Assembly: GCA_026120035.1 (NCBI GenBank)
Contig: JALRME010000041.1
Coordinates: 1-64,000 of the forward strand
DNA length: 64,000 nt
Reading direction: 5' to 3'
From: Coleophoma eucalyptorum
Lineage: Eukaryota; Ascomycota; Leotiomycetes; Helotiales; Dermateaceae
This document shows, piece after piece, positions 42,765-62,043 of this stretch. Both the position numbers and the translations under genes were made by a program. How positions within the stretch are numbered: position 1 is the first letter of the stretch; the number at the start of each line of letters is the position of its first letter. The notes beneath the pieces were generated by a model. It did no database searches, was not told where the DNA came from, and saw nothing but the letters and a program-made list of their open reading frames with translations.

Positions 42765-45381
42765 ATGAAGACCTTTACTGCCGGATTCTTCGCGGGATTG
42801 GTAGCAGTCGTTCTCGCTGAAGATTACCTTTTTATTGATTCTCTTCTATTCAACGAATATGATGCTGTTATAAACAACTTCAACAGAACTGCTAAAGTCG
42901 TCAATGATGCGGAGTGGAGGGCAATGACAACTGCGGACTTCGCCAAATTCAAGGCTATCGTCATATCTGATCCAGATGGAAACGGCGACCCTTCACAATA
43001 CGACTTTCTGGAGGATACCAAGAACACCTGGTCCCCAGCTGTCACTGGAAACATCATCCTCATAGGTTTTTTGCCTTTAAGTACCTTCAAAATTGCTCTG
43101 TGGCTGACTCAGGACTAGGAACCGACCCATCTAATCACGAAAATGTTGGAACAGCCGGCGCTGGAGTCCTCATAGATAATGCTGTGAGCTTCGCTGCTGC
43201 CGGCGAAGATCTCTCGGGAAAGTCTATTACTGGCCTCTACTTTGCGCTATCTCATCTCTATGACACAATTGCGAACGATACTGTAAAGTATCTATCGTAT
43301 TTTGGCGACTTTCGTGTCCACGGTAATCTAGGTTGTTATGACAAAGCCCATGTAGTTGCCAGCTCCCCGGCCCTTGGTACCCTTGACGATGCCGCACTAT
43401 CTAGTTGGGGATGCAGTGTTCATGAAGCTTTCTCTAGCTACCCTGACACTGGTATGAATGCATTCCAGCCCCTCGCTATTGCTCAGGATGTTGAGGGCGA
43501 TGGTAATAGAACATTTGCTGATGGTACTTTCGGAATTCCTTACATTCTCAGTCGAGGCGCTACTCCCAGTGGTTGTGGTGATGGTCATGTAGATACCTCT
43601 TTAGGTGAAGAATGTGACGACGGTAATGTTCTCAACGGGGATGGATGCTCTCTTAGTTGTAAGTGTGAGTCTGGCAGGAGTGATGGTAAAGGCAACTGTC
43701 TCCCACCAATTGTCCCAACAAGCACCGCTTCGACGTGAGTATCCCATAAATGGACCTGCTGACGATTTCCCTGGCTAATCTTTACGCAGCCCTACTTCAT
43801 ATGAGTCCCCCACCATAGTTACCGACACATTCCCATTTCCAACAAGCACCATTTTGACGTTAGTATCACATAAATGGACTTGTTGAAAATTTCGCTAGCT
43901 AATCTTTACGTAGCCCTACTTCATATGAGTCCCCTACAATAGTTACCGACACCTTTTTCCCATTGCCAACAAGCACCACTTTGACGTTAGTATCCCCCCA
44001 CGAATGGACCCACTGAAAATTTCCCTGGCTAATCCTAAGGTAGCTCTACTTCATCTGAAATTCCCACCATAGTTACCGACACCCTTTTCCCATAGTGAGT
44101 ATTCCATGAATCTACTAGTAATGAATCTTACTAATCATAAGACAGCCCTATACCTAGCACTACTTCATCTGAAAATCCCANNNNNNNNNNNNNNNNNNNN
44201 NNNNNNNNNNNNNNNNNNNNNNNNNNNNNNNNNNNNNNNNNNNNNNNNNNNNNNNNNNNNNNNNNNNNNNNNNNNNNNNACCATAGTTACCGACACCCTT
44301 TTCCCATAGTGAGTATTCCATAAATCTACTAGTAATGAATTTTACTAATCATAAGACAGCCCTATACCTAGCACTACTTCATCTGAAAATCCCACCATAG
44401 TTACCGACACCCTTTTCCCATAGTGAGTATTCCATAAATCTACTAGTAATGAATTTTACTAATCATAAGACAGCCCTATACCTAGCACTACTCTATCTAC
44501 GAAATCTACCAAGGCTGCCCACACCCCAAATCCATAGTTAGTATTCCGTGAATCTACTAGTAATGAATCTTGCTAATCATAAAATAGTCCTATACAAAGC
44601 AGTACTCCATATACGAAATCTACTAAGGCTGCCCACACCCCAAATCCATAGTTAGTATTTCCATGAATCTACCAGTAATGAATCGTGCTAACCATAGGAT
44701 ATCCCTATACAAAGCAATACTCCATATACGAAATCTACTAAAGCTGCCCACACCCCACATCCATAGTTAGCATTCCATGAGCCTATCGGCAATGAATCTC
44801 GCTAACAATGAGACAGCCCTACACAAAACACTACTCTATCTACTCTATCTACTAAAGCTGCCCACACCCCAAATACATAGTCAGTATTCCATGAATCTAC
44901 TGGCATTGAATCTCGCTAATCATGAGACAGCCCTACACCAAAGGTGTATCCAATTGTCATCGGTGTTGAGATCGTCATATACATCGATATCATCGAGTTC
45001 TGCGCAGTCGCTGGCACTAGTACTAGTAGGAAATCAGTCTTCCTTCCAAATTTCTTTTCTAACAATTGCTACAGTAACGGATTACTATACTAGCACTCGC
45101 TCTACAGAGACCAAGCGCATCTACAATACCCCAATACCTGGATATCCATGCTATATCTGCGGGTTGACTTCTCAAAATATCACCTATTCAATTGGCACTC
45201 TGGTGACAGCCTCAACGGTATGTCTCCCTTCATGAAAGGCTTTACAACGACTAACACAATCTGGCAGACGTCCTACGTCTCTGTTCCCACAGGTTATGTA
45301 CCTCAACTACTACTACCAACGATTCAAACCTGCCCAACCTGTTCTCCTATCGTTCTTCCTTCTTCAGTACCTTATTCTTGA
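42765..45381 (+). CDS. Secreted DUF4215-containing stalk protein with tandem intron-exon cassettes
   Basis: Predicted secreted or cell-surface protein. Exon 1 (42765-43065) encodes a signal peptide (GFFAGLVAVVLA). Exon 2 starts at 43119 and continues a globular N-terminal domain (IILIG joined to TDPSNHENVG, GNLGCYD, SSWGCSVHEAFSSYP). A Cys-rich DUF4215 repeat follows (CGDGHVD, GEECDDGN, GDGCS). From 43735 the gene becomes an array of small Ser/Thr/Pro-rich exons separated by near-identical introns. The end is 44931-45025, 45075-45217 and 45268-45381, with CPTCSP near the C-terminus. The array exons are phase 2-2, so copies add 21-24 residues without a frameshift. One unit (44703-44765) has lost its acceptor. 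An N gap lies inside the array. A lipid anchor is not evident. Confidence 0.75.
43735..44930 (+). repeat. Tandem array of intron+exon units in the DUF4215 gene
   Basis: Ten introns are visible outside the gap, starting at 43735, 43859, 43986, 44095, 44309, 44423, 44537, 44651, 44766 and 44880. The first three are 55, 55 and 58 nt with exons of 69, 72 and 51 nt. The rest are 51 nt (one 52) with exons of 63 nt, giving a 114-bp period. Donors are GTGAGT, GTTAGT, GTTAGC or GTCAGT, the branch region reads TTACTAATC or GCTAAC, and acceptors are ACGCAG, ACGTAG, GACAG or similar. Exons encode variants of P-T-S-Y-E-S-P-T-I-V-T-D-T and P-I-P-S-T-T. Confidence 0.85.
44181..44279. other. Assembly gap (99 N)
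   Basis: Run of N inside the tandem array. The flanks are the same position in the repeat unit, as expected where an assembler could not resolve copy number. Confidence 0.99.
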
Positions 45382-46427: not shown

Positions 46428-47607
46428 ATGACAAACACCAAAGGAAACGGCTTCTGTTTCCAATATGCTGCCTCTGGTACCTGCCAGTTTGGACCCAGGT
46501 GCAAATTTACTCACGGCGAGCCTAAGCAAGACCAAAATAATAAGGGATGACTTAAGTCTTCATATCTTATTCTATATATTGTCTCCTACTCAGCCTCGTA
46601 GAGTTAACTGCTAACTTTTGATGTTACAGACTCTTCCCCGAGAGCCCAAAAAAACTCAAAACATCAAGGCACGAATTAAATCCTATCCTCTTGTTCTACA
46701 TACTTTCTTCTACTCAGCCTTATGAGGTCAACTGTTAACTTCTGATGCTACAGTCTCTCCCCAAGAAAGATCAAAACATCAAGGCACGAGTTTCATCCTA
46801 ACCTCTTGTTCTATATAATTTCTCGTATACAGCCTTGTCGGGGTGACTGCTAATTTCTAGCGGCACAGTCCATCTTTCGAGAGCCCAAGAAAGATCAGAA
46901 CATAAAGGCACGGATTTGGTCCTAACATCCCGTTTTTATTTTGTCTCATACTCAGCTTTGTCAGTGCAACTGCTAATTTTTCGTATTTCCAGTCCCCTCC
47001 TCAGGGCATGAATCAGTCCAAAAAATACCGCAAAAAGGAACATCAAGAAGTACAACGGCCCACAGACCATATCGATAAATTCTTTGCCCAACATCCTACC
47101 TTTCAACAGGATTCAAAAGCGTCAATATGGACCGAATTCAACCGTATGTGCAACGATTTCGAATGGAATAAATATGACATTCAGATGCGAAATGCAAGAC
47201 GGGACTTCAAATCGGCGATGGTCCAGCAATTCAACAACATCTATGGCCGAAACGAGAAGGACATGCGCTCGTGGCGGAAATTATATCGCGCACTGAAGAT
47301 CAAACCTGTTCCCAGGGACCTTGAAACTTGTCGAGAGGTGATTACTCACTATAATATATTGCTATATCTGAACTTTCCGAATTCTAGGCTAATGATAGAG
47401 TAGTTAATTAGCCACACGCATGTCAATCTTGTGGATCTGGTAGACATACCACGGACTGGAGAAGCTGTGATGATATTCCCAAGTCTCCGAAAACTTCAGG
47501 ACTACACAATCGAAACTGGAAAATTCTTCCCAAAACATGATGCGTATGCCGGCGGTTTGCTCCGATTCTTGCTTCGGGAGATTAAATCGAATAGGAGGTT
47601 TTATTAG
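46428..47607 (+). CDS. CCCH zinc-finger protein with tandem intron-exon cassettes
   Basis: About 244 aa if all cassettes are spliced: exons 46428-46544, 46630-46668, 46754-46783, 46869-46907, 46993-47337 and 47404-47607. Exon 1 encodes one CCCH finger (CFQYAASGTC, then CQFGPRCKFTH). Exons 2-4 encode short basic repeats (LPREPKK.QNIK). The last two exons encode a conserved fungal domain ending THVNLVDLVD, GKFFPKHDAYAGG and LRFLLREI, often found after such fingers. CCCH fingers usually bind RNA. The first four introns are each 85 nt and all exons are phase 0, but their donors are GG, GC, GC and GC. If intron 1 cannot be spliced, translation stops right after the finger. Confidence 0.7.
46545..46992 (+). 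repeat. Tandem array of four 85-nt introns with 30/39-nt exons in the CCCH gene
   Basis: Introns 46545-46629, 46669-46753, 46784-46868 and 46908-46992 are all exactly 85 nt and share CTCAGCCT near the middle, ACTGCTAA(C/T) near the end and (T)ACAG, CACAG or CCAG acceptors. The exons between them are 39, 30 and 39 nt and phase 0. The 5' ends read GGATGA, GCACGA, GCACGA and GCACGG after AAG. Confidence 0.8.
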
Positions 47608-51627: not shown

Positions 51628-51709
51628 TTTCTCTCCTGCTCTCTCCTGCTCTCTCCTGCTCTCTCCTGCTCTCTCCTGCTCTCTCCTGCTCTCTCCTGCT
51701 CTCTCCTGA
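51628..51709. repeat. 10-bp tandem repeat (CTCTCCTGCT)
   Basis: About eight near-perfect copies of a 10-base unit directly at the point where similarity of the kinase-like gene ends. Unit length not divisible by three, so it reads through as a 10-residue Arg/Glu-rich repeat on the minus strand. Confidence 0.85.
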
Positions 51710-61689: not shown

Positions 61690-61919
61690 CTACAATGTCA
61701 ATGTCAATGCCCTCAATTCTCACCCTCTCTATTGATCCCTTGCATCGTTACTCGCGACAATACTAGTATATAATATTATATATATTTACTTGCCTGTATA
61801 TTATATTCGTATAGGCTTTAGCTGTTTCTTTTCTCAAGTTGTATTTCAGAGAGATAATCCTAACAGAGTCAAGCTACCTAGTAGAGTTTATCCTTGCTCT
61901 TTGTTACTTGTTTATATCA

Positions 61920-62043
61920 TACTCGCATATTCGTTCTCGTATATTCCTTCTCGTATATTCATTCTCGCATATTCACTCTCGTATATTCCTTCTCGCATAT
62001 TCCTACTCGTATATTCGTTCTCGCACATTCGTTCTCGCAAACA
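61920..62043. repeat. 14-bp minisatellite
   Basis: About nine diverged copies of CTCGTATATTCCTT (variants CTCGCATATTC). The read-through frames in all three phases are an artefact of the repeat. Confidence 0.85.

Follow-up and report, generated by a model that had tools for sequence, protein, structure and literature searches.

The gene at positions 42765 to 45381 of the window raises the question of how a single gene came to carry at least ten short introns in 1.2 kb, whether these are spliced, and what their multiplication has done to the protein. The window is the whole stretch analysed, the first 64 kb of a contig of 289,657 bases in an assembly of 45.26 Mb and 101 contigs. Judging from the sequence, it is likely that the gene is functional and encodes a probably secreted protein of two modules, the linker of which would have been lengthened by tandem copying of an intron-bearing unit, with the reading frame acting as a filter.

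Gene structure and layout of the array

The gene, of the DUF4215 type, is on the plus strand, as are all of its exons and introns, and runs from an ATG at 42765 to a stop codon ending at 45381. Exon 1 (42765 to 43065) contains the start codon and the first part of the N-terminal domain and is collinear with the Coleophoma proteins P0001 and P0002. Its N-terminus looks like a signal peptide, by eye rather than by a predictor, and the protein is probably secreted. Intron 1 (43066 to 43118, 53 nt) is outside the array and has a weak donor, GTTTTT, and a TAG acceptor; this boundary yields IILIGTDPSNHEN, as in both Coleophoma orthologues. Exon 2 (43119 to 43734) encodes the remainder of the N-terminal domain and the DUF4215 cysteine motif. 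On the other side of the array, the exon at 44931 to 45025 starts the C-terminal cysteine module (VYPIVIGVEIVIYIDIIEFCAVAG) and matches P0002 and P0001. It is followed by a 49 nt phase 1 intron (45026 to 45074), with P0002 spliced at the same place. The splice model and comparison with the orthologues then give the C-terminal module exon (45075 to 45217) and a 50 nt phase 0 intron (45218 to 45267). The last exon (45268 to 45381) ends in ...PSSVPYS and a stop codon, aligning with the last residues of P0002. The public model of P0001, from Coleophoma crateriformis, apparently reads through the intron that matches 45026 to 45074 and ends in ...STSRKSAVPP; that it is without the C-terminal module present in P0002 is probably an annotation error.

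The nearest proteins are from two Coleophoma species and are 79% identical across 78% of the query, in the N-terminal part. By BLASTP, the C-terminal module matches P0002, from Coleophoma cylindrospora, through to the final VPYS. In both of these species the DUF4215 gene and a CCCH zinc-finger gene have consecutive locus numbers (BP5796_11987/11986 and BP6252_11123/11122), and the two genes are also neighbours here; orthology is supported by this shared adjacency. In the homologues an N-terminal domain is followed by a cysteine motif of the DUF4215 type, then by a linker and a C-terminal module around IGVE; the same architecture is found here. Against the PF13948 profile, for which the cut-off is 27, the spliced protein scored 22.5 bits, the exon frame 26.7 and the exon frame with its frame neighbours 27.5. 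Several of the top homologues bear the name DUF4215 in the database or come with a precomputed PF13948 assignment. A search of the same genome for paralogues of the N-terminal domain gave no other match at E <= 0.1. For the part after the assembly gap (227 aa), none of 4459 candidates matched at E <= 0.001, within a length window of 0.55 to 1.75 times, too narrow to admit full-length relatives like P0002. The structure model of P0002 has a mean pLDDT of 64.6 and found no PDB match at E <= 0.001, with just weak alpha/beta hits.

Between exon 2 and the C-terminal module, at 43735 to 44930, there are ten phase 2 introns around short exons, one of these exons being cut by a gap. In order, the introns are 55, 55, 58, 51, 51, 51, 51, 64 (52 by homology), 51 and 51 nt, and the eight complete internal exons are 69, 72, 51, 63, 63, 63, 51 (63 by homology) and 63 nt, each a multiple of three. 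The first part, as placed by the splice model and alignment, contains introns A1 (43735 to 43789), A2 (43859 to 43913), A3 (43986 to 44043) and B1 (44095 to 44145), all in phase 2, and exons A1 (43790 to 43858), A2 (43914 to 43985) and A3 (44044 to 44094). The exon behind intron B1 is represented by its left part (44146 to 44180), which adjoins an assembly gap of 99 N (44181 to 44279), and by its end on the far side of that gap (44280 to 44308). Placed in the same way beyond the gap are intron B2 (44309 to 44359, phase 2) with exon B2 (44360 to 44422), intron B3 (44423 to 44473), identical to B2, with exon B3 (44474 to 44536), and intron B4 (44537 to 44587) with exon B4 (44588 to 44650). Intron B5 is proposed to extend from 44651 to an in-frame AAG at 44714, leaving exon B5 at 44715 to 44765 (from 44703 by homology). 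Intron B6 (44766 to 44816) has the donor GTTAGC and is followed by exon B6 (44817 to 44879) and intron B7 (44880 to 44930). Tandem Repeats Finder reports the region as two linked arrays, of period 124 (43715 to 44093) and period 114 (44303 to 44943).

This layout agrees with the original prediction in its main points. At least ten introns had been expected in 1.2 kb, mostly of 51 nt, and ten were found, six of which have that length. The predicted phase symmetry holds for all eight complete internal exons, which are entered and left in phase 2, and the assembled units keep the frame, as had been proposed for this DUF4215-type protein. The tandem amplification of whole intron-exon units is likewise confirmed, as adjacent units are homologous in the intron and also in the flanking exon.

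The gap had been missed. Because it lies inside the array, the assembled number of copies is a lower bound. From the register of the repeat, its true length is 114k-1 by arithmetic, to which 99 N is nearest at k=1, or one missing unit; the register does not fix k or, with it, the number of missing units. The unit to the left of the gap (44095 to 44180) differs from 44309 to 44394 at 2 of 86 bases. Near-identical units on either side of a scaffold gap are what would be expected had the copies been made by misassembly, but most units differ by many substitutions, with a mean identity of 83% between the B introns, and such copies are not created by misassembly. It is very unlikely that the array is an artefact of this kind. 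The uncertainty that comes from the assembly is limited to the number of near-identical central units.

Probable splicing of the array introns

When the ten array introns are aligned, nine have the donor GTNAGT, all ten the branch site CTAAY, and nine an AG at the homologous place. In the 11 columns of these core motifs, 2 of 110 cells are off consensus, compared with 85 of 400 (21%) in the 40 other gap-free intron columns. In 100,000 permutations of the columns a contrast this extreme never arose; the columns are not fully independent, but both classes have the same history. The lengths of the units tell a similar story, albeit from few events: between types the exons change by +3, -21 and +12, all of which keep the frame, while the introns change by +3, -4 and +1, which do not all do so. 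Since the splice motifs are far better conserved than other intron positions, and frame-keeping is limited to the indels in exons, the array introns are very probably real and spliced.

The reading frame is consistent with this. Without splicing there are stops in all three frames, and reading through any one of the ten array introns leads to an in-frame stop, which the seven B-type copies all reach at their first codon. With the introns removed, there are 381 open codons before the gap and, beyond it, 227 residues followed by a stop; the frame was checked on each side separately, the 99 N barring a test over the whole array. Splicing all of the introns joins the conserved N-terminal domain to the C-terminal module of the Coleophoma orthologue.

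Some of the donors look weak against the fungal consensus (GTTAGC and GTCAGT), and among four array exons pN is 0.126 and pS 0.151, with no sign of strong constraint on the repeat peptide itself. In intron B5, from 44651, the acceptor has been lost, with GGATAT at the homologous place, a feature overlooked in the original prediction. The next AG is 12 nt into the exon and restores the frame, whereas the AG just upstream is a few bases past the branch A and would form a TAG with the previous exon. Leaving out the exon at 44703/44715 to 44765 altogether keeps the frame as well. From these positions, the cassette could give either an exon shortened through the in-frame AG or no exon at all.

These features, together with the absence of a hydrophobic tail and the presence of an intron-bearing tandem array in the adjacent CCCH gene, where GT is found at one of four aligned donors, could be taken to mean that the locus is decaying and that the array is a neutral minisatellite in a gene that is losing its function and is only partly kept readable. 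This is unlikely. The N-terminal part, in an open frame, retains 79% identity to its Coleophoma orthologues, with 78% of the query aligned, the C-terminal module and its stop are conserved, and the splice motifs have been kept between copies that have otherwise diverged. Recent decay does not account for the missing tail, as P0002 likewise ends at VPYS.

A second possibility is that the array makes the linker variable through splicing, exons being skipped singly or in groups, under regulation, to give in-frame isoforms. All eight of the assembled internal exons are phase-symmetric, and the exon behind the lost acceptor can be omitted without loss of frame. Short exons such as these are associated with exon skipping across eukaryotes according to PMC6142364. 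In most eukaryotes, however, the same paper finds that skipping goes with longer flanking introns, and the array introns are very short; it also describes fungi as comparatively low in exon skipping. The splice motifs are nearly uniform between copies, which fits intron definition, and the phase symmetry is already accounted for by duplication of one intron with a frame filter. Regulated skipping is quite improbable here. The earlier suggestion that the length of the protein is varied by splicing found no support, given the comparatively low level of skipping that PMC6142364 attributes to fungi and the in-frame stop that follows retention of any array intron. Constitutive splicing of the array introns, by intron definition, is the more likely course.

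Origin of the array and related systems

The A-type introns (55 to 58 nt) and the B-type introns (51 nt) align along their whole length, and all ten are for this reason probably derived from one ancestral intron. At 44309 and 44423 the intron sequence is the same, yet 18 of 63 sites differ between the exons that follow. It follows that the boundary of the latest copying event was inside the exon and that the intron was a passenger. The phase symmetry of the exons is no separate coincidence, because a single phase 2 intron has been copied under the constraint of the frame, and a copy is tolerated only where its exon portion has a length divisible by three.

We infer that this intron was present before the duplications. 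A unit of about 114 to 127 bp of linker DNA, holding the one phase 2 intron, would have undergone repeated tandem duplication through unequal recombination or replication slippage, with selection purging the copies that break the frame and most of those with broken splice sites. Each unit that survives would contribute one short intron, removed in vivo, and about 17 to 24 linker residues.

The near-identity of the units flanking the gap suggests that the array was recently expanded or homogenised. A change in linker length through DNA copy number is plausible from this one assembly, and the same units suggest that alleles may differ in length through recent change. It is possible, though less likely than not, that the array is an active intron-exon minisatellite in which units are gained and lost in frame between strains. 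The introns would then serve as neutral spacers that let positions irrelevant to splicing diverge. The phase-symmetric layout would tolerate the loss of a single splice site, since a damaged cassette would be left out or cut short in frame, and this may already occur at 44651 to 44765.

Near-identical introns within one gene might also be produced by introner-like elements, that is, by a mobile intron inserting repeatedly into the linker, but in the array the exons have been copied along with the introns. In the 45.26 Mb assembly, the intron pattern with up to two mismatches gave 3 hits outside the array, compared with 7 control hits. A search of the whole assembly with the array DNA, scoring the best candidates only and skipping very common words, matched nothing outside the array. 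Repeated insertion is extremely improbable, and dispersed introner-like elements were rejected at the sensitivity used, the whole-assembly searches being at control level. The creation of introns de novo by duplication of an AGGT in an exon was set aside too, as exon and intron are both repeated. Tandem copying of a unit that already held its intron remains the preferred reading.

The arrangement has relatives elsewhere. The tandem units of coding minisatellites in fungal cell-surface proteins are purely coding; these too are low-complexity units that shift length in frame, whereas here every unit bears an intron. Human LPA encodes a secreted protein and, as here, the gene has intron-bearing units repeated in tandem. 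The kringle IV type 2 unit of LPA is 5.6 kb with two exons, and documented alleles have from 1 to more than 40 of these units (PMC6314250). In LPA copy number changes the length of the protein in frame, as the number of frame-neutral units would here, where the array is known from one assembly. The LPA unit also encodes a folded kringle, unlike the unit of about 114 to 127 bp and the disordered linker of the present gene. In TOUCH3 of Arabidopsis, an intron has been multiplied by internal tandem duplication, and internal tandem gene duplication with introns was surveyed by Gao and Lynch in 2009 (both as cited in PMC4974935). Both TOUCH3 and the array have an entire intron duplicated with adjoining exon sequence, but on a different scale, with two duplications in TOUCH3 and at least ten introns at the scale of a minisatellite here. 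The original prediction knew of no described system with this arrangement; in kind it is not undescribed, as intron-bearing coding repeats are known from LPA (PMC6314250) and TOUCH3 (via PMC4974935).

Other cases share part of the pattern. The fission yeast genes SPOG_01682 and SOCG_00815 have introns across tandem 24 bp exonic copies (as cited in PMC4974935). These are likewise fungal and combine tandem duplication within a gene with introns; however, one newly created intron there spans several exonic copies, whereas every unit of the array comes with an intron of its own and a translated exon. The introner-like elements of the Dothideomycetes are near-identical introns dispersed in unrelated genes (PMC4457414). 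They resemble the array introns in that several copies of a fungal spliceosomal intron are nearly identical, but the introns here are confined to one tandem array and have been copied with exons. In Zymoseptoria tritici, other intron duplication, within-gene tandem duplication included, makes up under 1% of single intron gains (PMC4457414). The NBPF/Olduvai sequences are also exon-intron blocks amplified inside genes, in this case in primate genes, where a block measures about 4.7 kb and contains six exons and as many introns (PMC9313022). SP7 effectors have repeats with a conserved intron before the first repeat (PMC11333574), and the AGL proteins of the Glomeromycotina have repeats, with one or two introns close to the signal sequence (PMC8786786). 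No fungal gene with tandem units that each bear an intron was found in searches of open-licence papers, which covered mostly titles and the starts of abstracts. The array is unusual in its copy number and tiny unit, with an ordinary mechanism, and is an extreme fungal case at the scale of a minisatellite.

With at least ten homologous copies of an intron and exon in one gene, the array provides a natural series for the evolution of splice sites under redundancy. It also bears on whether tandem duplication can raise the number of introns in fungi quickly, the insertion of introners being the better-known route of intron gain in these organisms. If strains differ in the number of units, the locus would be a fungal counterpart of the LPA kringle repeat at the scale of a minisatellite.

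The linker, the neighbouring gene and other repeats

The assembled linker is at least 206 residues long, as the gap is counted as nothing, and is 56% Ser/Thr/Pro. For comparison, linkers were measured in 32 homologues, these being the ones among the 120 best of 558 found in which both boundary motifs were recognised, with the other 88 left uncounted. These linkers have 51 to 127 residues and are 41 to 65% Ser/Thr/Pro; the Ser/Thr/Pro-rich character named in the original prediction was borne out, and the length of the linker varies across the family. The linkers of the Coleophoma proteins have 89 and 100 residues and are without the repeat peptides. Because residues 297 to 391 of the P0002 model, in its linker, have a pLDDT under 50, the lengthened linker is probably disordered. 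The array would then probably lengthen a disordered spacer, and its effect on the protein may be purely that of a spacer.

A hydrophobic C-terminal tail is present in 29 of the 32 homologues and absent both here and in P0002, which end alike in ...VPYS. By a crude count, made without a GPI predictor, the last 20 residues are 35% hydrophobic here and 40% in P0002, against at least 60% in those 29 homologues. The C-terminal hydrophobic signal of a GPI-anchored surface protein or adhesin was not found by this count. It is doubtful, with the tail of most homologues missing from this protein and from P0002, that the linker is a stalk at the cell surface as had been proposed.

Fungal repeat RiPP precursors have dibasic cleavage sites between their repeats. 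The assembled linker contains no dibasic pair, and a kexin-processed repeat peptide or RiPP precursor of this kind was rejected.

The CCCH zinc-finger gene downstream has a tandem array of its own at 46546 to 47038, with four units of 129, 115, 124 and 125 bases. The units contain an intron-like branch site and acceptor, and the aligned donor is GT in one of the four. At the place of the array, the Coleophoma CCCH proteins go from NNK straight to (ALQ)SVPR, without the repeat. It would seem that two adjacent genes carry duplicated intron-bearing units, with the splice sites kept in one and apparently not in the CCCH gene.

Repeats elsewhere in the genome were surveyed in sixteen stretches of 10 kb, two of them on the same contig, which amount to 160 kb of 45 Mb and were not randomly drawn. 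Tandem Repeats Finder identified one array with a period of at least 40 in these, in stretch L015. This 99 bp tandem array (4700 to 4965 of L015) has units of 33 codons and no introns, is open in one frame per strand, and is probably an ordinary coding minisatellite that offers a contrast to the intron-bearing array. Within the window, a perfect 10 bp tandem repeat (TCTCTCCTGC) is present at 51630 to 51708, with 7.9 copies and a 100% match, and there is a hierarchical tandem repeat of 14/28/42 bp (CTCGCATATTCCTT) at 61917 to 62039.
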